A stretch of 23,620 nt of DNA, from the IMG/VR virus record IMGVR_UViG_3300032296_000550, positions 1-23,620 of that record; one strand, written 5' to 3'. The position numbers were made by a program, and so were the translations under genes. The notes beneath the pieces were generated by a model that was not told the origin of the DNA, did not search any database, and saw only the letters and a list, made by a program, of their open reading frames with translations. The stretch is from a virus. Positions 3,075 to 14,044 of this stretch are shown here, piece after piece (the first letter of the stretch is position 1; the number at the start of each line of letters is the position of its first letter).

Positions 3075-3373
3075 GATGGCTCCAGTAAGTTGCGTAACCA
3101 CGACTCTAGTATCGAGACGTTCTCCTCGTTGATGACAATGGTGTACCCACCGGCCTGCCGTATCTTCTGCATCTGCGCTTCCTGTAGTGGCGTGGGCTTG
3201 TTGCCTTTAGCCTTACATTCAATGCCAATAAACACACCGTTGTAGCAACCGATGATGTCAGGCACACCCGATGAACCATACCCACCTGTCACGGGGTAAA
3301 AGTAATAGATGCCGAGTCGTTTAAGAATCGTCGTGACTGAAGATTTGACTTTGCTTTCTGGCGTTTGTGCCAT
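3071..3373 (-). CDS. VRR-NUC domain nuclease (PD-(D/E)xK fold)
   Basis: This 100-aa protein matches the stand-alone VRR-NUC nucleases common in phages. The core is GVPDIIGCYNGVFIGIECKA: the catalytic aspartate sits in VPD (about 37-39), followed by the E-C-K triad at 52-54, then KGNKPTPLQ with the conserved glutamine near 64 and a final helix after GG. These Holliday-junction or structure-specific nucleases usually sit in replication modules, as here, two genes before DNA polymerase. The start MAQTPESKVK (ATG) is preferred to an upstream TTG because it is preceded by GGGGGT at good spacing. It overlaps the end of the HTH gene by about 53 bases, which is long for this genome. Confidence 0.88.
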   Translation of the reverse strand: MAQTPESKVKSSVTTILKRLGIYYFYPVTGGYGSSGVPDIIGCYNGVFIGIECKAKGNKPTPLQEAQMQKIRQAGGYTIVINEENVSILESWLRNLLEPS

Positions 3374-3587
3374 CGATGTACCCCCGTATGCGTTCAATTG
3401 ACCAATCAGTTGCGTCGTACACAGACAGAATGAACTCTGCTGTAACCGCCGATGTGCCTGCGCGTATCTTTGAGATCGTTGGTGCGCTGACCTCTAGGAA
3501 CCTCGCCAAGTAGGCATCCGATGGTAAATTAAATTCGTCCTTGATTGCATCAAGAAGTGTGTGGGGTATGCGTGTTGCTTTCACCAT
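3321..3587 (-). CDS. Cro/CI-like helix-turn-helix DNA-binding protein
   Basis: This 88-aa protein contains a helix-turn-helix of the lambda-repressor-like type: LARFLEVSAPTISKIRAG at about residues 30-47, with the second and recognition helices separated by the usual turn, then a third helix and WSIERIRGYI. No dimerisation or peptidase domain follows, so it resembles small Cro-type or adaptor regulators. The start MVKATRIPHT is chosen because GGAG lies 7 bases upstream; a longer frame reads back through another small gene. It overlaps the stop of that small gene (ATGGTGA) and runs 53 bases into the nuclease gene. It is a candidate repressor or activator for one of the operator-like repeats in the left arm, but no target can be assigned. 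Confidence 0.78.
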   Translation of the reverse strand: MVKATRIPHTLLDAIKDEFNLPSDAYLARFLEVSAPTISKIRAGTSAVTAEFILSVYDATDWSIERIRGYIDGTNARKQSQIFSHDDS

Positions 3588-3742
3588 CTTGCTTCTCCAT
3601 AAAGTTCTGTTGTTGGTTTTGTATTGACAGGCTTGGGCTGCACTTGCAGCCGCCATCCTGCCTGCATGAAGCGTTCTGCCGAGTCCTTATCCCAGAACTT
3701 ACGTAGCAGAACGCCATCCTCGTCATAGACCCAGTACCTCAT
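3581..3742 (-). CDS. Short conserved-looking 53-aa phage protein
   Basis: This complete short frame encodes 53 aa, beginning MRYWVYDEDGVLLRKFW and continuing with SAERFMQAGW. Its start forms an ATGA overlap with the stop of the preceding 60-aa gene, and its TGA overlaps the start of the HTH gene, so it fits exactly into the coupled chain and fills what would otherwise be a gap. The two aromatic strand-like segments, then a helix and a proline/lysine-rich tail, suggest a small folded domain. Function is unknown. Support is positional and compositional only. Confidence 0.75.
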   Translation of the reverse strand: MRYWVYDEDGVLLRKFWDKDSAERFMQAGWRLQVQPKPVNTKPTTELYGEARW

Positions 3743-5698: not shown

Positions 5699-5968
5699 TT
5701 ATGCTAAACGTAGGGTTAGTATTGCTTTGACTTGCTCTACTGCTTCATTGATTTGATGCTGTTGTGCTTCACGTCCGTAGTACAGCGTTGCTAGGAAGTA
5801 AGGGTTGCTCTCTGCTGAGTCAGTAAGTTCAACTCGGTAAAGAGCAGGTCCCGTTACTTTGATCGGCAGCGTCACCATATCCTTGGTTACGTAGCTGTGA
5901 AATACCGCGTGCATGTGCGGTGAGAAGATGAGGCTTTCGCTCAAGCCAAGATTCAACCCTTCACTCAT
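5699..5968 (-). CDS. 89-aa protein within the MoxR/VWA module
   Basis: This small protein starts MSEGLNLGLS and overlaps the end of the VWA gene by 4 bases (ATGA); its TAA stop forms part of the Shine-Dalgarno of the next gene. It has strand-like blocks (VTLPIKVTGPALYRVEL and PYFLATLYYG) followed by a C-terminal helix (INEAVEQVKAIL). It is not recognised. Its tight coupling on both sides suggests it is a component of the same complex. Confidence 0.7.
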   Translation of the reverse strand: MSEGLNLGLSESLIFSPHMHAVFHSYVTKDMVTLPIKVTGPALYRVELTDSAESNPYFLATLYYGREAQQHQINEAVEQVKAILTLRLA

Positions 5969-7155
5969 ACCCCCTCCAGTAGTGACGAGATGTTGACCAG
6001 CTTGCCCTGCGGTGGCGTGAAGCGTTCGTTGTCAACGACACCCCACAACTGCGGCGCTTCTGTGTGTAAGTCCTGCGCACCGTAGAAGTACCCATCGGTC
6101 AGCCAGATGATGCCCTTGGCCTTGATGTCATTGGCTCGCAGGTGTTGAACAACACACGATGGCTCAGTGCCTCCACCACCGGCAGGCTTCAACGCTTGCG
6201 CGATTGACTCGTACTCATGCGGCTCGAACACCTGCTCACCGCACACCTCGCTGTCCCACCATATGATGCGAACGCGCTCCGGGTTAGCCATGCGGCAGAT
6301 GTTGGCGATCTCACCGAACAGCACCGGATATATCGCGCCCATCGAACCGGACGTGTCACCCGCAATCACTAGCTCACCGGTTGACTCAGAGAAGTGTGAC
6401 CACAGCAACACACCCAGAGGAAGGAAGCGTTTGTTGGGCGGGGACAACCGAGACAAGTCATGACCTACGCACACAGTCGTTGCGAACTCGCGCATAGCAT
6501 CTCGCCAGTCGGTGTTACGTTGTGCTGTCATGTTGTCGATAGCAAGGTTGCGTGAGCCTTGGCCTGCCATGTTGTTGGCAAGTATGGCGCTCTGTCGTAC
6601 TGCTTCCTCAACCATCGACTTCAACTCGGTGGCTTCCTCGTCATCGAAGTTACCCTCCATGTGTTCGTCAAGCGAGCCGCCTCCCTGCTGGTCTTGATCG
6701 TCCTGCTTGTCTTCAGCGATCAGCACCTTCAGCACCTCAATCAACGACATGTCAGCGAACCGCTGGTCAATCAACAAGTCATCAGTCGGGCGCTCAACGA
6801 ACTGGAACGTGGGATCAAGCGACTCGATCAGCCCGTTAACCACGTAGTCCGCAGCACGTGGCATGTGGCGTGGGTACTTCTGTGCCAGCGCCTTGTACTC
6901 GGTGCAGTGGTGCAGCAGCTTGTGGCCGTTCTCGTGCAGCACCAGATACCGTAACTGCTTGCGGTTCAAGTCTGCGCAGAACTTATTGCCGTAAGTCACG
7001 TCACGCCCATCGGTGGCAGCGGTTGGCATAGAGTCGCTGAACTTGACCTCGCCAATCATTGCCACGCCGGACATGCGCGTGAACTCCTTGTGCCGAGCGA
7101 TATCGATATGGGTTGCCTCGATACGCTGCGGTAGTTGTAAGTCTTGCCAAGCCAT
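5965..7155 (-). CDS. Metallopeptidase-like plus VWA domain protein (DUF2201 type)
   Basis: This 396-aa protein joins two domains. The N-terminal part carries LVLHENGHKLLHH with the zinc motif HENGH at 74-78, as in the putative metallopeptidase domain that precedes DUF2201/VWA-like domains. A low-complexity acidic linker (about 148-175, DDQDQQGGG) separates it from a C-terminal von Willebrand A fold with an intact metal-ion site: VIAGDTSGSM (DxSxS at 267-271), a GGGGTEP loop, and WLTDGYF. VWA proteins of this type act with MoxR AAA+ ATPases, encoded just upstream, in complexes that remodel or insert metal into targets. The strong AAGGAGGAG before the start overlaps the MoxR stop. All metal-binding residues look intact. 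Confidence 0.9.
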   Translation of the reverse strand: MAWQDLQLPQRIEATHIDIARHKEFTRMSGVAMIGEVKFSDSMPTAATDGRDVTYGNKFCADLNRKQLRYLVLHENGHKLLHHCTEYKALAQKYPRHMPRAADYVVNGLIESLDPTFQFVERPTDDLLIDQRFADMSLIEVLKVLIAEDKQDDQDQQGGGSLDEHMEGNFDDEEATELKSMVEEAVRQSAILANNMAGQGSRNLAIDNMTAQRNTDWRDAMREFATTVCVGHDLSRLSPPNKRFLPLGVLLWSHFSESTGELVIAGDTSGSMGAIYPVLFGEIANICRMANPERVRIIWWDSEVCGEQVFEPHEYESIAQALKPAGGGGTEPSCVVQHLRANDIKAKGIIWLTDGYFYGAQDLHTEAPQLWGVVDNERFTPPQGKLVNISSLLEGV

Positions 7156-7164
7156 AGCTCCTCC

Positions 7165-8298
7165 TTAACGCATGGTGATAAGTTCAGCGTTGTCACGCAG
7201 CATGGTCGTGAACGCAGGGATAGTCATGAAGAACGCCGCCTTGGTGATGTTGTTCGACACCGCTGTGCTGAACAGCCCCTTCATCTCGCCACGCATACGC
7301 AGCACGTAGGTGGTGAGCGCATCAGCTTCTTGCCGGTTGGCAACACGGTTGATGAACTTGAACACTTGAACAGTCTGAACAATCGGGTTACTTGGCACCG
7401 GCGTGTTGTGCGGGTCGTTCACCACGTCATCGTAGGCAGGCATCTGCTCACCGAAACGAATCACCGACATCAGCTTGCCAGCGAACGATGGGCCGACCGT
7501 ACCGATTAACGTCTGCTCCAGCGCCATGCTGTCCTTCCCAGCAAGATGTTTCACAACATCGCTTGATGCCTCCATCGAACGGGGTGAGGCGTAGGCGAAC
7601 TGACTTGCATCACGTGGGTTGAAGATGTCAGGCGCATCGGTCTCGATCTTCTTGCCGTGAAACTTGCCGCCGGGTAAGTAGTCCACGAATGAGTGGAACG
7701 CTTCCGGGTATTGTTGCGCCGTGGCAATCACCTCGGGTGCCAAGCCTTTGTTGGTGGCATACACCACCCAGCGCGGCATGTCCGCCTTGCCCAAGTTAAT
7801 CTGTATCAGGCGGTTGCGCATGTGGGCCTGCAACATATCGCCCAGACCTTCTGACGCTAGGTTGGTGGTGGCAAACACGACAGACCCTTCAGGCAGGTAC
7901 AGGTTGCCAAGCCTGCGCTCGTAGATCACAGGCGCGATCTGAGGCTTCATGTAGCTTGGAGCCTTGCCGATCTCATCGAAGCACAGCACGACAGGCCGTG
8001 CGCCCTCTACGCCTCGGCAGTTGGCCTTGGATACGCCGAACCGGTCGTTGGGTATCTCACGCGATACGCCAAGCTCGGTGTCGATGGTGGGCATCCAGAT
8101 CGAACCATCAGCAAGTTGCTGACAGTCAATGATGCCGGGGAAGATGTGGTTTGCGAACTGCGGCAGCTTTTGCAGCGCGTAGTAGATCGAGGTTTTGCCG
8201 ATGCCGTTCTCGCCGGACAGCAGCACCGTACGCAGGTGGCCTACAGAAGAGATGACACTGGTTGCTTGCTCGAACGAAAGAAATTTCTGTGCGTTCAT
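7165..8298 (-). CDS. MoxR-type AAA+ ATPase
   Basis: This 377-aa protein has the AAA+ core at its N-terminus: Walker A GENGIGKTS (29-37), Walker B VVLCFDEIG (103-111), sensor 1 in VFATTNLASEG (N146) and an arginine-finger region HMRNRLIQI (R161 or R163). Inserts and the FATTN segment match the MoxR/CobS branch, which works with VWA-domain partners as a chaperone-like remodelling machine. The C-terminal half (about 230-377) is specific to this family and probably forms the lid and partner interface. It heads the four-gene module, behind a promoter with a perfect TATAAT and a strong Shine-Dalgarno (AAAGGAG, nine bases before ATG). The cellular target is unknown. Confidence 0.9.
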   Translation of the reverse strand: MNAQKFLSFEQATSVISSVGHLRTVLLSGENGIGKTSIYYALQKLPQFANHIFPGIIDCQQLADGSIWMPTIDTELGVSREIPNDRFGVSKANCRGVEGARPVVLCFDEIGKAPSYMKPQIAPVIYERRLGNLYLPEGSVVFATTNLASEGLGDMLQAHMRNRLIQINLGKADMPRWVVYATNKGLAPEVIATAQQYPEAFHSFVDYLPGGKFHGKKIETDAPDIFNPRDASQFAYASPRSMEASSDVVKHLAGKDSMALEQTLIGTVGPSFAGKLMSVIRFGEQMPAYDDVVNDPHNTPVPSNPIVQTVQVFKFINRVANRQEADALTTYVLRMRGEMKGLFSTAVSNNITKAAFFMTIPAFTTMLRDNAELITMR

Positions 8299-8607: not shown

Positions 8608-9771
8608 TCAGTGCGTGTGACACATATCAAACAAGTCCAGCATCACCGTGTCAACATCGAACCCGTCCTGTATCGCCTCGAGTGCGTACGTCAGTTCATC
8701 CGGCCCGAGGTTCTGCACACGGATATGTTTCAGCGCCAAGTCGATATCGTCAGGGTATGCAGCCACCGCCATCATCTCGCGCAGCGCACCCGTGAACCCC
8801 TGTGTGGCATCCATCAGCGCGTCGATGGCATCGAGTCGCTTGTACTTACTGTCGGCGTAGTCCTCCCATGTGTCGTCGTTGCCGTCCCACCACGCTGTGT
8901 CGTAGTAGCTGCTGTACCCCTTGTACCCACCCCATACTTTCTCCTCGACAACTGACGGGTCACGCTCAGTCGGCAGGCTATCCCAATCAAGCTGTACGGC
9001 AGCGGCAGCAAGGCGGGTGAAGTGGTCGAGGTTCAATGACTCGCGCTCGGTGTGCTCGTTGTAGTAACCCACGCTGATGTTTGTACACTCGGGGATAACT
9101 GTCGTGAACTCAGCGGTGTCGGTGTACACACCAGAGTCGTCAGGCGCATACATGAACGCATCGGGGTCGAGGTCGTTGAAGGCATTAGCCAATGCCTCGG
9201 CGAATGAATCTGAACAACATCTACCATACCCCTGATGACTGATGATGCTGTCCACACCACGGCGATCAAACGCAATGGCACGATCAAACTCGCTGAGTAA
9301 GTCGGCGTACTGCTTGGCGATGAATGTCGCACCGATGCCACCACGCTCCTCGCCCTGCGTGAAGATAAAGTAACTCGGCTTGCCTGCATGAATCAGGTTC
9401 ATCAGCAACGCCACACCAGCGCCATCATCTGCACCGAGCGGCGCGCCACCGTATGCGTGGATCGTGTTGTCCTTCAGCTTGATCAGGTTCTTGCCATCTT
9501 CCCTGTGTACCGTATCGACGTGCGCCACGAACAGCGTGCGGTGTGACTTCTTGATACGCGCATCAACGTGCAGGTTACCTGCGGCATCGATGAACGATCT
9601 GGGTTTGAGTTTAGTGGGCAGGTTGTCATGCAGCCACTCGGTGAATCGGCGTACTGCTTTCCCACCATGCGGACGCTTGACGGTAAGTGCAGTCTTGAGG
9701 GTTGTCATCAGCGCAGTTGATGCGGTGATGGGCGTTGGTTTAGTTGTGCGTGGTGTAGCGCGTGTCATCAT
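8608..9771 (-). CDS. M20/M28/M42-like zinc aminopeptidase
   Basis: This 387-aa protein shows the co-catalytic two-zinc peptidase pattern in order: FVAHVDTVH (H84, D86), GADDGAGVAL (D115, D116), QGEERGGIGA (E141, E142), FDRRG (D169) and a late histidine in YYNEHTERESL (H240). This order and spacing is that of the M20/M28/M42 group, which removes N-terminal or dipeptide residues. The last 130 residues are acidic and tyrosine-rich (YKGYSSYYDTAWWDG) and look specific to the phage. Two ATGs lie in tandem at the start (9771 and 9768); the second has slightly better spacing from AAGGAG. It overlaps the stop of the 429-aa gene, so the two are co-translated. A peptidase of this class is uncommon in phages; a substrate cannot be named. 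Confidence 0.85.
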   Translation of the reverse strand: MMTRATPRTTKPTPITASTALMTTLKTALTVKRPHGGKAVRRFTEWLHDNLPTKLKPRSFIDAAGNLHVDARIKKSHRTLFVAHVDTVHREDGKNLIKLKDNTIHAYGGAPLGADDGAGVALLMNLIHAGKPSYFIFTQGEERGGIGATFIAKQYADLLSEFDRAIAFDRRGVDSIISHQGYGRCCSDSFAEALANAFNDLDPDAFMYAPDDSGVYTDTAEFTTVIPECTNISVGYYNEHTERESLNLDHFTRLAAAAVQLDWDSLPTERDPSVVEEKVWGGYKGYSSYYDTAWWDGNDDTWEDYADSKYKRLDAIDALMDATQGFTGALREMMAVAAYPDDIDLALKHIRVQNLGPDELTYALEAIQDGFDVDTVMLDLFDMCHTH

Positions 9772-11057
9772 TCTTCTCCTTCGTTGTTGTCTTCATCGTT
9801 GCTCGGGTACTCATCGGCGTACATGGGGTGGATATTCAACTCGTTACCGTACTCATCCTTCACCAAGACGCTGTCAACATCTTCGCTGTACCACTCGTTG
9901 CTGTGCTCGCACTCCCACGCATGATCGCGGTGTTCGTACTCGCCGTTCTCTAGTGTGATGATGTTGTTCTCATCGAGGTAGTCCAGATCGTAGTGGCGGT
10001 CTGTTGACTCCAGATACAGCACGTTGTCCTCGTGAATGTTGCGCTCAATCCCACCGCGTGACAACGCTCTGCTGTATCTGTACTCGTAGCAGTGCTCGCA
10101 TACGTGGGTTTCATCTCTAGCGCCAACCCAGTACATATCCTCGCTGTGGTTGTAGTCACCGCAACTCTCGCACGCCTCGGTTTCATCCTCCTCCTGCTCG
10201 GGCGTGCCGTCTGTGTTGTTGCATACGTACTCACCACCGTCGCAGATACGCAGTCGTTGCTCACCAGCGATACGCACTATGTCCACGTTCTGCACGTCGC
10301 CGTCGATGTACGGTGCGAGGAAGCTACCCCAGTTTGAACCGCGTTCGATGAACGCCATGTGTGCGCCTTCAGGCCAACCGCCACGGTGTACGTAACCCTG
10401 CTGCTTTAACCATGCTTCCAACATCTCGTCAGCGTATGAGTAACCATCGCCTTTCTTGTAGCTGCGTACGTAGCACTTGTAGTCGCTGTCGGGGTCTTTG
10501 TACACCAGCGCACGACCAACGACATCACCCTGTGCAACACGGCGTGCCATACCCCAACCGTAGTCGGGTTCGTACACTCTGTATGGGTGACGCTCGCTGT
10601 GGCAATCGTTCCATCGCATACATGACTGCGGCCCACGTTGCAGCGTGTCGAGTATCTCATCCATCGTATGCACAACCTCGCAACCCGATGCACCACACAG
10701 CGCAACGATGTCGCGTATCTGATCGTCACGTAGTTTGCTCGTGCTGAAGTGTCGGCGTAGATACTTGCCGATGCTGGTGATTGTCTGGCGGTTGTCGTGG
10801 CCTGCTCTGTCATCACGTGTGTAGGCTAGGCGTTGCGGATCAGATGTTGAGATGTGCGGCCACTCAAGTACCAGCAAGTGCCAGTCGATTGGTGGTGCTA
10901 GTCTGACTGCCTCCCACACCGCATCGTGCATGGCGTACTCGTTCTGCTCACGGCCATGCCAACCACGCAAACCACTCGGGTCTTGGCGCAGCACACGGGC
11001 AAGCTCTTGCATCCATTCGATGCGTGACTTGGGGTCATAGGTGTAGATGTCTTTCAT
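9768..11057 (-). CDS. 429-aa cysteine-pair protein of unknown function
   Basis: This 429-aa protein is rich in tyrosine, histidine and acidic residues. The centre carries a likely zinc site, CESC (296-299) and CEHC (320-323) separated by 20 residues, with further cysteines near 272 and 279. The C-terminal 100 residues alternate acidic and aromatic residues (YDLDYLDENN) in repeated strand-like blocks around short positions where displayed side chains resemble WYSEDVDSVL. The start MKDIYTYDPK has AAAGGAG nine bases upstream. It follows an inverted-repeat-bearing leader and is coupled to the peptidase by ATGATG overlap. The family is not recognised beyond resemblance to long phage hypothetical proteins with zinc knuckles. 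Confidence 0.75.
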   Translation of the reverse strand: MKDIYTYDPKSRIEWMQELARVLRQDPSGLRGWHGREQNEYAMHDAVWEAVRLAPPIDWHLLVLEWPHISTSDPQRLAYTRDDRAGHDNRQTITSIGKYLRRHFSTSKLRDDQIRDIVALCGASGCEVVHTMDEILDTLQRGPQSCMRWNDCHSERHPYRVYEPDYGWGMARRVAQGDVVGRALVYKDPDSDYKCYVRSYKKGDGYSYADEMLEAWLKQQGYVHRGGWPEGAHMAFIERGSNWGSFLAPYIDGDVQNVDIVRIAGEQRLRICDGGEYVCNNTDGTPEQEEDETEACESCGDYNHSEDMYWVGARDETHVCEHCYEYRYSRALSRGGIERNIHEDNVLYLESTDRHYDLDYLDENNIITLENGEYEHRDHAWECEHSNEWYSEDVDSVLVKDEYGNELNIHPMYADEYPSNDEDNNEGEE

Positions 11058-11084
11058 GGTTGCTTCTCCTTTGTTGTGGTTGTT

Positions 11085-11104
11085 GGGGACAACTTGTCCC
11101 TGAG
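11085..11104. repeat. Dispersed inverted repeat, copy a (variant)
   Basis: GGGACAA (11086-11092) and TTGTCCC (11094-11100) form a 7-bp dyad with a one-base centre, followed by TGAG. It shares the GGGACA...TGTCCCTGAG core with four other copies at 11.6-13.75 kb but lacks the outer CTCA on one side. It lies in the 50-bp leader before the 429-aa gene. There is no adjoining T-run. Confidence 0.6.
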
Positions 11105-11107
11105 TTG

Positions 11108-11260
11108 TTACTGCGTTTCTCCTTCTTCTGTTGTGCCGCCGTTTAACTGCAAGTACATCTCCTTATCTACTGATATCCAGAGGCAATCATCAAACTCGTG
11201 CATCACCTCTGCGCTCTCCAGTATGTCGAAAGCAAGTTCAAGTTTTTCCCAGTCAGTCAT
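11108..11260 (-). CDS. Short acidic 50-aa protein
   Basis: This complete 50-aa frame starts MTDWEKLELAFDILESAEV and ends in GGTTEEGETQ. The start overlaps the stop of the next upstream gene as ATGA, and AAGGAG lies seven bases before it. The protein is acidic, with one amphipathic helix and a short strand pair (CLWISVDKEMYLQL). Function is unknown. It is followed by the inverted repeat in the leader of the 429-aa gene. Confidence 0.7.
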   Translation of the reverse strand: MTDWEKLELAFDILESAEVMHEFDDCLWISVDKEMYLQLNGGTTEEGETQ

Positions 11261-11460
11261 TTCATTTCTCCTTCATTTACTATGGGTTGGTCAAGCGCGG
11301 CATTCAGTCTTACTAAAACTCTGCGCATCTCATCAACGTCATCGCCCACTAGACACGGTGTTGTGTAACCCACGGGTTTGCCGTTCGTGTAGTTCACCTC
11401 GGCAAAGAACAGCGTGCCATCTTCGGTGCGTATCAGTCTGTTGTTCCATGTCATTTCCAT
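11257..11460 (-). CDS. 67-aa protein of unknown function
   Basis: The start MEMTWNNRLI is chosen because GGGGAG lies seven bases upstream; a longer frame reads back into the neighbouring 50-aa gene. The protein appears to have a beta-strand N-terminus (NRLIRTEDGTLFFAEVNY), a GYTTPCLVG strand and a C-terminal helix (VDEMRRVLVRLNAAL). It sits between two 50-aa genes, coupled to both. Function is not recognised. Confidence 0.7.
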   Translation of the reverse strand: MEMTWNNRLIRTEDGTLFFAEVNYTNGKPVGYTTPCLVGDDVDEMRRVLVRLNAALDQPIVNEGEMK

Positions 11461-11461
11461 T

Positions 11462-11614
11462 TCACTTCTCCCCTTCTGTGTATTCAACTTCGATGTGCCA
11501 AGCAAACGAGGCAGGCTCGATACCCATACTTAGCAAAACGTCATGCAGCATCTCGCCCATCATTGCTACGTCTTGGCGGCTTAGTTCGTTGTCGCCGATC
11601 AGTACTGTCTTCAT
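11462..11614 (-). CDS. Short 50-aa protein of unknown function
   Basis: This complete 50-aa frame starts MKTVLIGDNELSRQDVAMM and ends in EVEYTEGEK. AAAGGAG lies seven bases before its start, and its TGA falls one base before the next gene's start codon. Two helices (ELSRQDVAMMGEML and DVLLSMG) followed by a strand are predicted by eye. It is the first gene after a terminator hairpin only about ten bases upstream of its ribosome site. Confidence 0.7.
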   Translation of the reverse strand: MKTVLIGDNELSRQDVAMMGEMLHDVLLSMGIEPASFAWHIEVEYTEGEK

Positions 11615-11630
11615 TTCACTTCTCCTTTAT

Positions 11631-11659
11631 AAAAAACTCAGAGACACCATGTCTCTGAG
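11631..11659 (-). terminator. Rho-independent terminator; dispersed inverted repeat, copy b
   Basis: Read leftward, CTCAGAGAC (11659-11651), a five-base loop and GTCTCTGAG (11645-11637) form a perfect 9-bp stem followed by six Ts. It sits directly after the 259-aa gene and before a new ribosome site. The stem is also a full member of the CTCAG-GAC/GTC-CTGAG repeat family, the only copy with a T-run. Confidence 0.8.
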
Positions 11660-11666
11660 GTACTGC

Positions 11667-12446
11667 TTACTCGTATGACACGAGCAGGTTGCCCAACCGT
11701 TCGATCTCCTGCGCATCTTCGGTTGGGGTTAGTGCCATCCACGATTTCGGTGTGGCTTTGTGGAGTGGCATATCTTTGGCAATCGCTATCGCTCTATCGA
11801 TACAGGCAATCACGTGTTGCGCGTAGGCAACTTGGTTAGGTAGTCCGCGCATCTCTGCATCTGCTAGTTGGGCATCGTGCATCGCCCGATCTTCACGCCA
11901 TACATTCAGACGTTTCTCTCTGGTAAGTGCGCGTTGCTGTGTGTAGTTGTTCTTCTCAAAGAGTGGCGATCGGTTGCGTGCATGGGCGTTGGTAGGTAGC
12001 TGCTGTTGTTCTTGCGCGAAAGCAAGTTTGATCTTGCGTGGTATCCAGTCAGTCCAATGCGCACCATCGTCGGTGACTGTGTACTTCTGCCGCTTCGCTG
12101 CTTCGAGTGGCGTTAACTCACCCTGCCTTTGGTATGCGCGAAGCGTGGGTAGTAGCTTCTGCTGCACTCGCAAGTACTGCTCATAGAGTGTTCGATGCTG
12201 GTACATCGCGTTCTTCTTGTAATGCCCAAGCTTTGCGCGTGTGGTGTTCATCTCTGTGAGTAACCCGTTAACGAGTACGCTCCACGGGTCTGCGGTTTGG
12301 TTGCGTAGTCGGGCGATCTTTAATTCGTATCGTCGCTTGGTCTGCGCTCGCTCGATGATCTGATTGATTGCCTTGAATGGAAGGCCGCGTTTCTCTAGCC
12401 GCTTGTAGAGTTGCTTCTTCGTGAGTTCGTGGTATTGCTTGCGCAT
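11667..12446 (-). CDS. Basic helical 259-aa protein of unknown function
   Basis: This protein is strongly basic and almost wholly helical, rich in K, R and Q, with N-terminal MRKQYHELTKKQLYKRLEKR resembling a SAP-like or nucleic-acid-binding helical pair, a central RYELKIARLRN segment and TREKRLNVWREDRAM later. No catalytic motif is seen. Single-stranded DNA or RNA binding is plausible from charge. The start is supported by AAGGAG seven bases upstream. It is the first gene after the origin-like non-coding block and is closed by a strong terminator, so it may form a one-gene transcript; a role at the origin is an inference from position. Confidence 0.7.
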   Translation of the reverse strand: MRKQYHELTKKQLYKRLEKRGLPFKAINQIIERAQTKRRYELKIARLRNQTADPWSVLVNGLLTEMNTTRAKLGHYKKNAMYQHRTLYEQYLRVQQKLLPTLRAYQRQGELTPLEAAKRQKYTVTDDGAHWTDWIPRKIKLAFAQEQQQLPTNAHARNRSPLFEKNNYTQQRALTREKRLNVWREDRAMHDAQLADAEMRGLPNQVAYAQHVIACIDRAIAIAKDMPLHKATPKSWMALTPTEDAQEIERLGNLLVSYE

Positions 12447-12498
12447 AGTTTCTCCTTACGTAAAGTCACAAGTTTATGCCTTGTGTCACGTGATGGCA

Positions 12499-12564
12499 AG
12501 AAGTTTATGTTGTTCTGCCAAACAGTTTCCATTCGCTGAAATGCCTGAGATACCGCATGAATAC
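12499..12564 (+). repeat. Long inverted repeat, left arm
   Basis: The arm contains AGAAGTTTA (12499-12507), GCCAAACAGTT (12517-12527) and CCGCATGAATAC (12553-12564). All three recur in reverse complement in the right arm with the same 9-base gap between the first two and 25 versus 24 bases between the second and third. Confidence 0.8.
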
Positions 12565-12639
12565 AGGCGAAAACTTAGTTAGGAAAAAACGTAAGTCTAC
12601 CTAACACGTGAAATGTGAGAACACCATAAGCCTAGAGTG

Positions 12640-12686
12640 TTTATGCCAAGTTTAATGACTGTTCGCTTTCGGAACTTTGGCATAAA
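12640..12686. repeat. Inner dyad TTTATGCCAA
   Basis: TTTATGCCAA (12640-12649) is repeated in reverse complement at 12677-12686, with 27 bases between. The same octamer TTTATGCC occurs at 12473-12480, so three copies lie in this block. They could be iterons or sites for an initiator or repressor. Confidence 0.6.
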
Positions 12687-12760
12687 GTCTGTAGACCCCT
12701 GAAGCTATAAATAAATAAGTGTTATGTATACTATATAAATAAATTAATTATTATTAGTTA

Positions 12761-12825
12761 GTATTCATGCGGGTTCTCACGCTTTTTTGCGCTGTCAACT
12801 GTTTGGCGAAACGTATTAAACTTCT
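12761..12825 (-). repeat. Long inverted repeat, right arm
   Basis: Reading leftward, AGAAGTTTA (12825-12817), GCCAAACAGTT (12807-12797) and CCGCATGAATAC (12772-12761) mirror the left arm. The intervening bases differ, except for TGAGA near the inner end, so this is an old or functionally constrained duplication rather than a fresh one. GTCAACTGTT (12794-12803) also recurs directly at 12834-12843. Confidence 0.8.
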
Positions 12826-12834
12826 CTCCAATAG

Positions 12835-13050
12835 TCAACTGTTGCTTTCAAGAAAGTATCTCTCCACAACAAGTTTGTGAGAGATGATCTTCAACTCGCG
12901 TCGATCATCGAGTGAGCGTAGCTGCACTTCTTTCGGTGCGTACGCTGCATCGTAGTAGATGCCTAGCACTTCCCAATTACGGCGCTGGTATTTGATGGTG
13001 TTGGGGTACTCAGGGACTGCGTGTCTTTGAGTTGTTGTGGAGTGTTTCAT
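12835..13050 (-). CDS. 71-aa basic protein of unknown function
   Basis: This protein starts MKHSTTTQRH and overlaps the stop of the preceding 53-aa gene as ATGA, with GGAAGGAA upstream. It has strand-like blocks NWEVLGIYYD and ELKIISHKLVVERYFLES, suggesting a small beta-rich fold. Codons 7-14 contain a degenerate copy of the dispersed inverted repeat. It ends at the edge of the origin-like block. Function is not recognised. Confidence 0.65.
   Translation of the reverse strand: MKHSTTTQRHAVPEYPNTIKYQRRNWEVLGIYYDAAYAPKEVQLRSLDDRRELKIISHKLVVERYFLESNS
13009..13031. repeat. Dispersed inverted repeat, copy c (inside a gene)
   Basis: CTCAGGGAC (13009-13017) and GTCTTTGAG (13023-13031) match the arms of the family with two G-T positions, at the same 5-base spacing as copies b and d. 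It lies within the 71-aa coding region near its 5' end. Confidence 0.55.
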
Positions 13051-13208
13051 CGTTCGTTTCCTTCCAGTAGATCGAACAGGTAATCGCCTAAGTCTTGGCC
13101 GGTGTAGTCAAAGCCATCGAGCCAGTAGGTGCGGTGTTCTTCTGGGCAAGCCAGAATCTGCGCGATGGTCATTCCGAGCATGGTGTCGTGTGGTGATGGG
13201 AAGTTCAT
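13047..13208 (-). CDS. Short 53-aa protein of unknown function
   Basis: This complete 53-aa frame starts MNFPSPHDTMLGMTIAQIL and continues with CPEEHRTYWLDGFDYTGQDL and an acidic C-terminal helix (GDYLFDLLEG). GAAAGG lies eight bases before the start and its stop overlaps the next gene as ATGA. It fills the space between a GC-rich hairpin and the 71-aa gene. A competing arginine-rich frame on the same strand is judged to be a shadow. Confidence 0.68.
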   Translation of the reverse strand: MNFPSPHDTMLGMTIAQILACPEEHRTYWLDGFDYTGQDLGDYLFDLLEGNER

Positions 13209-13230
13209 GATGATGCCTTTCAGGTTTGAC

Positions 13231-13269
13231 AGAAAAGAGAATCGGCGCGAGACCTCGTCTTCTCGCGCC
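13231..13269 (-). terminator. Weak rho-independent terminator candidate
   Basis: Read leftward, GGCGCGAGA (13269-13261), an 8-base loop and TCTCGCGCC (13252-13244) form a perfect 9-bp GC-rich stem. The following GATTCTCTTTTCT is T-rich but interrupted. It lies between the 124-aa gene and the 53-aa gene and may give partial termination. Confidence 0.5.
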
Positions 13270-13293
13270 TTCCGTGTAACTTACTGCTGAGAA

Positions 13294-13316
13294 CTCAGAG
13301 ACAACGTGTCTTTGAG
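13294..13316. repeat. Dispersed inverted repeat, copy d
   Basis: CTCAGAGAC (13294-13302) and GTCTTTGAG (13308-13316) are separated by five bases; the arms match but for one G-T position. It begins two bases after the stop codon of the 124-aa gene (reading leftward) and lacks a T-run. Confidence 0.6.
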
Positions 13317-13318
13317 AA

Positions 13319-13693
13319 TTAAACGCCTGCAAGAAAACGCTTCTTCTGCGCAGCGGTGAGGTCATTGAACTTCTTGAGCAACTGCGCGACTGGATCGGGT
13401 TGCTTCGCTTTGGTCTTGCCACTAGGCAAGTCGCTTGGTGGGTAGATGACGTTGAGTACGCGCATCACGGCCTTGTGTGCTGCCATGCCTTGCTTGGTGT
13501 CAACATTAAAACCATCGCCGCGTTGACCGGTGCGAATCCGCACATCGTACTTCTTGCTTGCCCATTGCAACGCGTGAGGCTTTGCCTCGGCGCGTGAACC
13601 AATGCCAAGCTGCATCATTGCCTCAGCGAAATTGACGCTTGTCTTCTCGACGGCGTCGAACACTTGTGCTGGTGTGGTGTAGTTGATAGTCAT
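13319..13693 (-). CDS. 124-aa protein, first gene of the left arm
   Basis: This is the promoter-proximal leftward gene, probably expressed first after infection. It starts MTINYTTPAQ with AAGGAG nine bases upstream in a leader identical over 14 bases to that of the MoxR-like gene. The protein has a helical N-terminus (FDAVEKTSVNFAEAMMQLG), a central basic part (KKYDVRIRTGQRGDGF) and a lysine-rich C-terminus (AAQKKRFLAG). DNA binding is possible from charge. It is flanked by two copies of the dispersed inverted repeat, one in the leader and one just after the stop. The family is not recognised. Confidence 0.7.
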   Translation of the reverse strand: MTINYTTPAQVFDAVEKTSVNFAEAMMQLGIGSRAEAKPHALQWASKKYDVRIRTGQRGDGFNVDTKQGMAAHKAVMRVLNVIYPPSDLPSGKTKAKQPDPVAQLLKKFNDLTAAQKKRFLAGV

Positions 13694-13726
13694 GGTTGTT
13701 TCTCCTTGTGTGGTTACTGCGTTGAA

Positions 13727-13748
13727 CTCAGGGACACGTGTCTCTGAG
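13727..13748. repeat. Dispersed inverted repeat, copy e
   Basis: CTCAGGGAC (13727-13735) and GTCTCTGAG (13740-13748) flank ACGT, giving a 22-bp near-palindrome with one G-T position and a perfect GACACGTGTC centre. It lies in the leader of the first leftward gene, about 30 bases after the -10 box, a position suited to an operator. Confidence 0.7.
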
Positions 13749-13775
13749 TGCGTTGCCTCATTGCAACACAGCTAT

Positions 13776-13784
13776 ATTATACCA
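13776..13784 (-). promoter_or_regulatory. Extended -10 leftward promoter
   Basis: On the minus strand TGGTATAAT (13784-13776) is a perfect extended -10 element (TGn plus TATAAT). No good -35 lies 17 bases upstream, which is typical of extended -10 promoters. Transcription would start about 75 bases before the 124-aa gene and read through inverted repeat copy e. Confidence 0.6.
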
Positions 13785-14015: not shown

Positions 14016-14044
14016 AAAAAAAGCCCGCCGGGAGAGGGGCGGGC
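14016..14044 (-). terminator. Strong leftward terminator facing out of the virion arm
   Basis: Read leftward, GCCCGCC (14044-14038), an 8-base loop and GGCGGGC (14029-14023) form a perfect 7-bp GC stem followed by seven Ts (14022-14016). No leftward gene precedes it in the window, so it would stop antisense transcripts from the virion genes before they reach the left-arm promoters. Confidence 0.78.

Follow-up and report, generated by a model that had tools for sequence, protein, structure and literature searches.

Five copies of one palindrome lie among the early genes of a stretch of viral DNA (hereafter the window: the whole 23,620 nucleotides analysed, positions 1 to 23,620 of the IMG/VR virus record IMGVR_UViG_3300032296_000550), and the observations described below suggest that they are DNA sites for a small protein, P1, encoded by the first of these genes. 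P1 (124 residues; 13319-13693, minus strand) is the proposed cognate DNA-binding regulator of the palindromes. With a probability that we put at roughly two in three, judging from sequence comparisons, it binds them, regulates its own gene and damps the first early operon. P1 is picked out as the partner of the sites by its constant presence beside them, by the matched palindromes in the leader and at the tail of its gene, and by the covariation of its residues with bases of the sites. The P1 gene, starting at 13693, heads the early genes, which occupy the minus strand and run downwards; the late arm, with the small terminase, the large terminase and the portal, occupies the plus strand from 14137.

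The palindromes of the window follow the consensus CTCA(G/A)(G/A)GAC-N-GTC(T/C)(T/C)TGAG. A scan of the entire window for CTCAGGGAC...GTCCCTGAG, with at most 4 mismatches over 18 positions and a spacer of 3-7, returns five sites, compared with an average of 0.33 and a maximum of 2 in first-order Markov resamples. The first-pass annotation of this DNA had placed copies at 11637-11659, 13009-13031, 13294-13316 and 13727-13748, and these coordinates are exact. Its fifth copy, described as a shorter variant at 11085-11104, exists but is a full 23-mer at 11082-11104. It had seen no further copies in the window, as the scan confirms, and had named in advance a comparison with shuffled sequence as a possible refutation, which the palindromes withstand.

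All five sites are given here on the minus strand. Site 1 (13727-13748; CTCAGAGAC-ACGT-GTCCCTGAG) is located in the P1 leader, 33 nucleotides ahead of the P1 start. Site 2 (13294-13316) begins 2 nucleotides past the P1 stop codon, a position that it also has in nearly all relatives, and P1 lies between these two sites. Site 3 (13009-13031) begins about 16 nucleotides past the stop codon of gene 13047-13208 (53 residues), the end of which overlaps the start of gene 12835-13050 (71 residues). It had been described as inside a gene; it does lie within the start of 12835-13050, but it also follows the stop codon of the preceding gene. In two relatives (L006 and L028) the residues encoded at site 3 differ and the palindrome is preserved. 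Site 4 (11637-11659) begins 7 nucleotides past the stop codon of gene 11667-12446 (259 residues). Site 5 (11082-11104) is the variant GTTGGGGAC-AACTT-GTCCCTGAG, which begins 3 nucleotides past the stop codon of gene 11108-11260 (50 residues) and lies 24 nucleotides before the start of gene 9768-11057. The four early genes whose lengths are given here are uncharacterised and lie on the minus strand. One of the five sites is therefore in the P1 leader, and the other four begin 2-16 nucleotides past a stop codon.

L199, the nearest longer relative, has a counterpart of every one of the five sites in the corresponding position, site 4 among them; site 5 is there as an identical 23-mer, and site 1 is syntenic in L040 as well. 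The conserved positions, together with the resampling, uphold the suggestion of a phage-specific regulatory set rather than chance. The companion suggestion of a mobile hairpin is not supported, given the same synteny, since copies of an element such as a miniature inverted-repeat transposable element (MITE) or a repetitive extragenic palindrome (REP) are found at varying loci.

Relatives were gathered by means of the small terminase, P1 and one neighbouring early protein. The arrangement of P1 and palindromes is shared by over 100 sequences of related uncultured phages. Matched leader and tail palindromes were found at 171 of the 197 P1-bearing loci (99 distinct P1 proteins): one copy is near the start of the first early gene and another at its stop codon, the two have equal arms, and further copies occur at downstream junctions. 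A detector blind to the sequence of the palindrome, used with strict criteria, finds at least three copies of a locus's own palindrome family in 25 of 100 loci, whereas resampled loci never have even two. A P1 homolog is present in 86 of 101 loci and is nearly always the gene bracketed by the two copies nearest the terminases; these copies are usually about 420-500 base pairs (bp) apart and flank the first early gene. The sites, of which 3-6 are usually found per locus, are palindromes of 20-23 bp limited to the first early genes, and in near-complete relatives those above background are all found on the early side of the large terminase, within roughly 8 kb upstream of it.

Across lineages the palindromes have about 14 different inner cores, each common to all sites within one phage: GGGAC, GGGTC, CGGAC, TGGAC, GAGAC, TGTAC, GGTGC, GTTAC, GCGAC, CTGAC, TAGAC, GTAGC, GGGTG/GGGTA and GGGAG. 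In the CGGAC clade (L183, L185, L191 and relatives) the leader site is within the P1 coding sequence and also encodes residues such as ADKSSAS. No such palindrome family was found in the cultured phages DSL-LC04, HTVC027P, HTVC023P and 023Pt_psg01, the terminases of which are distantly related. Pag-Yong1 carries two similar GC-rich hairpins. A scan of bacterial genomes gave one terminase relative, on a contig of a Chitinophagales metagenome-assembled genome, with neither P1 nor the sites in the stretch examined. A pattern scan of viral contigs returned 94 stretches, mostly single copies in unrelated context, where a rough estimate predicts about 70 by chance; it is not used as evidence. Among its hits, the unrelated contigs L013, L017, L033 and L042 have a long terminator-like palindrome, CATTCTCAAGGACATTTTGTCTTTGAGAATG, followed by a T-run.

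Palindromes such as these could be recognised as folded RNA, acting in the early mRNAs as attenuators, as processing or stability elements, or as antitermination sites. They are able to fold, they are transcribed, they lie beside start and stop codons, and site 4 has a T-run. Compensatory RNA hairpins were first suggested by the concerted change of both arms between phages. Such change fits a hairpin and a two-fold DNA site alike, so it is the variation within a phage that tells them apart: a hairpin must keep its pairs, while the site of a dimer needs only acceptable halves. At the variable positions of the arms within phages, 315 pairs are retained compared with 331.7 expected. In a larger set the numbers are 414 and a shuffled expectation of 479 (z -7.6), and the core positions alone give z -0.35; when pairing is forced in the same data as a positive control, z is +23.6. 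The below-chance pairing stems from the outer A/T-rich positions, which differ between the halves, with the asymmetry occurring in both senses. Read on the transcribed strand, the arms have 77 A-C mismatches against 50 G-U pairs. The spacer has the length most common in its own phage in 302 of the 307 sites, although loops normally tolerate change, and a search of Rfam gave no match. Compensatory hairpins were dropped after the comparison of arms within phages, and an RNA-level function of the palindromes is, in our estimate, quite improbable. The first-pass annotation had argued that the differences between the arms preserve G-U pairing and had proposed a search for their covariation. The G-U pairs exist on the plus strand only, the early genes being read from the minus strand, where the same differences are A-C mismatches, and the arms do not vary as retained pairs. 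The absence of a pairing excess, together with the fixed spacer, leads us to favour the interpretation that the palindromes are dyad DNA sites rather than RNA hairpins or general terminators.

The last of these possibilities, that the sites are intrinsic terminators which resemble each other by coincidence, takes its support from site 4, the only copy in the window with a long T-run and a good terminator by itself, and from the A/T-rich flanks in some clades. That part of the earlier description, which spoke of one copy as a terminator, stands. It does not extend to the set: T-rich tails (at least 5 T in the 8 bases after the site) are found on the sense side at 52 of the 307 sites and on the antisense side at 38, and tails that are nearly as common in antisense do not support general termination. 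Nor would terminators need a sequence that is shared within a phage and changes jointly between phages. We consider coincidental terminators highly improbable. Phage-specific hairpin promoters of the kind used by the N4 virion RNA polymerase would account for short conserved dyads before genes and for the template-strand wobble pairs in the window. Pairing, however, is unselected on both strands, the leader sites have a bacterial -10 box, and a search for a single-subunit (T7-like) RNA polymerase, made without a positive control, was empty. Such promoters are the most remote of the readings weighed here.

The positions of the sites relative to genes and promoters indicate where their ligand might act. 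With gene junctions defined by a simple open reading frame rule, 182 of the 236 non-leader sites are at junctions, where random positions would place 40%, and about 95 of the 236 begin no more than 5 nucleotides past a stop codon. The early promoter of the window has an extended -10 element, TGGTATAAT (13776-13784, minus strand), and -10 boxes recur at the same spacing in relatives. The centre of site 1 is at about +31 from the inferred transcription start. Among leader sites generally, 27 of 71 have a -10 box 40-60 nucleotides before the centre, where about 1.7 are expected (two bins). A second small inverted repeat, GTTGC-AATGAG-GCAAC (13750-13765), is located between site 1 and the early promoter of the window. 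The internal sites have no -10 box comparable to that of the leader sites and are not linked to promoters. Action of these sites on a passing polymerase is accordingly more likely, we infer, than action on initiation.

Neither P1 nor 43 homologs have a meaningful match in Pfam or PHROGs, the weak matches being isolated and confined to single members, and none is found among PDB sequences. The AlphaFold2 model of the P1 monomer is confident (mean predicted local distance difference test score, pLDDT, 88.6): two helices are followed by a β-hairpin and a third helix (67-83), which a flexible linker joins to a C-terminal pair of helices. A separate P1 subfamily has the same order of predicted elements. 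MarR proteins, STIV F93 and small terminases were considered as fold relatives and rejected, as all these matches were insignificant. Five P1 variants had no match, at the sensitivity used, among 50,697 named phage records, and searches of open-access papers turned up no account of the system of P1 and palindromes. The first-pass annotation had proposed the palindromes as operators for a small helix-turn-helix (HTH) protein. A small phage protein is indeed the best explanation, but the likeliest one, P1, belongs to no recognised HTH family. The window also encodes, at 3321-3620, a small YdaS/HTH_3-like protein with sub-threshold Pfam matches, possibly a DNA-binding protein; no link between it and the sites is drawn.

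The contact between P1 and its sites might be made by the third helix. Two alignments of P1 proved too diverse to scan; 20 representatives of one P1 group were compared with half-site positions 5-8 (CTCA-5678-C). The neighbouring residues H73 and K74 of this helix (codons at 13472-13477, minus strand), which covary with half-site positions 5 and 7, are the proposed base-reading residues. The column of K74 (column 76) contains K or R in 13 of the 15 proteins with G at position 7 and in none of the 5 others (Fisher p 0.0014). The column of H73 (column 75), which leads the listed top-ranked column/position pairs in mutual information, contains E with C at position 5 (6 of 6), H, R, K or Y with G, and mostly Q, D or S with T. 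Such pairings of residues and bases resemble the usual readout of the major groove by a helix, which makes them a lead, not proof. The P1 proteins of L196 and L197 differ at 4 of about 123 residues; these differences, one of them K to S, go along with a change from GGGAC to GTAGC in every copy of the site. On the tree the changes fall on separate branches (L196 versus L197, the TGTAC versus the TGGAC clades, L190 and L195).

Several observations weigh against P1 as the repressor of these sites. The covariation scan, the permutation values of which ignore phylogeny, gives equally high scores to other P1 columns, and the rule for K74 and position 7 is broken in L190, where T occurs with G, and in L297, where Q does. 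The P1 of L199 (2581-2895, reverse-complement orientation) has 104 residues, having lost most of its second helix by an internal deletion, and yet the sites are kept; the deletion could be an assembly error or a real loss. Fold searches against PDB and viral structures gave insignificant matches only and no known DNA-binding fold. The spacer of site 1 in the window is 4 nucleotides. Finally, in the GGGTC clade (L119, L121, L125, L140 and relatives) the leader site is upstream of the -10 box, which follows 30-50 nucleotides after it; the centre of the site is near -49 from the start, beside a poor -35 element. This geometry would also suit activation of early or middle transcription by P1. In the clade of the window, however, the site is about 30 nucleotides downstream of the start, and the internal sites are away from promoters, so that activation appears unlikely.

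By combining these results it is possible to outline how P1 might work as a repressor. P1 would be produced from the first early promoter and, as it accumulates, would occupy the site in its own leader and those at the downstream junctions, each duplex palindrome being held by a P1 dimer with one subunit per half-site. At the leader site the action of P1 would be close to the promoter. Bound at the internal sites, P1 might obstruct the elongating RNA polymerase, in the manner of the mycobacteriophage stoperators compared below. Occupancy would thereby lower transcription of the early operon across its first ~3 kb, and further in relatives. As each lineage has its own pair of P1 and site, the P1 of one phage is not expected to regulate another, and the lineages may form separate incompatibility groups.

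Dispersed palindromes with a single cognate protein also recall ParB and parS, and the cluster of sites adjoins the terminase genes. P1 could then be the binding protein of DNA maintenance sites serving partition, the start of replication or packaging. The sites, however, are at the junctions of one operon and none is in the late arm, and they bracket the gene of P1 itself, as is typical of autoregulation. Furthermore, ParA was found in none of 16 relatives of ~60-66 kb, while the control genomes were positive in 14 of 14 cases. A maintenance function is very unlikely. Tyrosine integrase was found in none of the 16 relatives either, again with all 14 controls positive, and lytic growth is likely on this genomic evidence.

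Regulation by P1 can be compared with several known systems. The operators of lambda-type regulators (cI and Cro) are palindromes with half-sites read by a dimer, and the regulator gene is autoregulated; they are located at promoters, whereas most P1 sites are inside the operon and away from promoters. The start-associated sequences (SAS) and extended SAS (ESAS) of cluster K mycobacteriophages are reportedly short repeats beside gene starts, including an inverted-repeat part, and we know of no regulator that changes in step with them. P1 sites, in contrast, come after stop codons and are paired with one protein family. For T7 Gp5.7 no dispersed cognate sites are known to us. Gp5.7, a small protein of a lytic phage, is described in one account as binding DNA and repressing those promoters of the phage genome that the host polymerase uses, and may be regarded as a functional cousin in early shut-off (PMC5569994). 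P1 matches no solved structure.

The closest working analogue appears to be the stoperators of cluster A mycobacteriophages such as L5 and Bxb1, of which the P1 system is not a member. These are numerous sites for the repressor Rep that block elongation, most of them in short intergenic spaces and away from promoters; one precedes the gene of the regulator, and from phage to phage the sites diverge in step with the repressors (PMC6550527, PMC9283540). A stoperator is an asymmetric 13-mer, oriented with transcription, and its ligand is a monomer that has two DNA-binding domains; a temperate phage genome has 20-30 of them (PMC6550527, PMC9283540). P1 sites likewise occur as several copies of one sequence, mostly intergenic and away from promoters. 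They differ in being palindromes, in the smaller number found per locus and in their restriction to the first early genes. P1 is unrelated to the L5 Rep family, and the relatives lack detectable integrase and ParA.

Some further features of the window may be recorded. Downstream of the P1 tail site, at 13244-13269 on the minus strand, there is a GC-rich hairpin with a T-rich tail, and a similar sequence follows P1 in L099, L100 and L180. A perfect hairpin resembling a terminator, with seven T on the minus strand, separates the divergent early and late arms (14023-14044). The early arm also encodes a VWA/metallopeptidase-like protein beside an ATPase (5965-8298; matches to DUF2201 and phrog_1297) and an M28-type peptidase (8608-9771).

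The best-known examples of an operon blocked by dispersed repressor sites come from temperate mycobacteriophages. In the present phages, in which neither integrase nor ParA was detected, a stoperator-like layout is combined with palindromic sites and with a protein family that Pfam, PHROGs and PDB do not contain. It is possible, though on balance doubtful, that these phages, a large and apparently obligately lytic clade, possess an undescribed DNA-binding family with its own fold, which applies a stoperator-like brake to the operon. One or two residues of a single helix would have switched its specificity repeatedly, and the roughly 14 classes so formed would not be interchangeable. The natural pairs of P1 and site, which include near-identical proteins with different sites, offer a direct test of how a regulator changes specificity along with all its sites. 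If the proposal is true, the ~14 classes could serve as incompatibility or superinfection groups without lysogeny.

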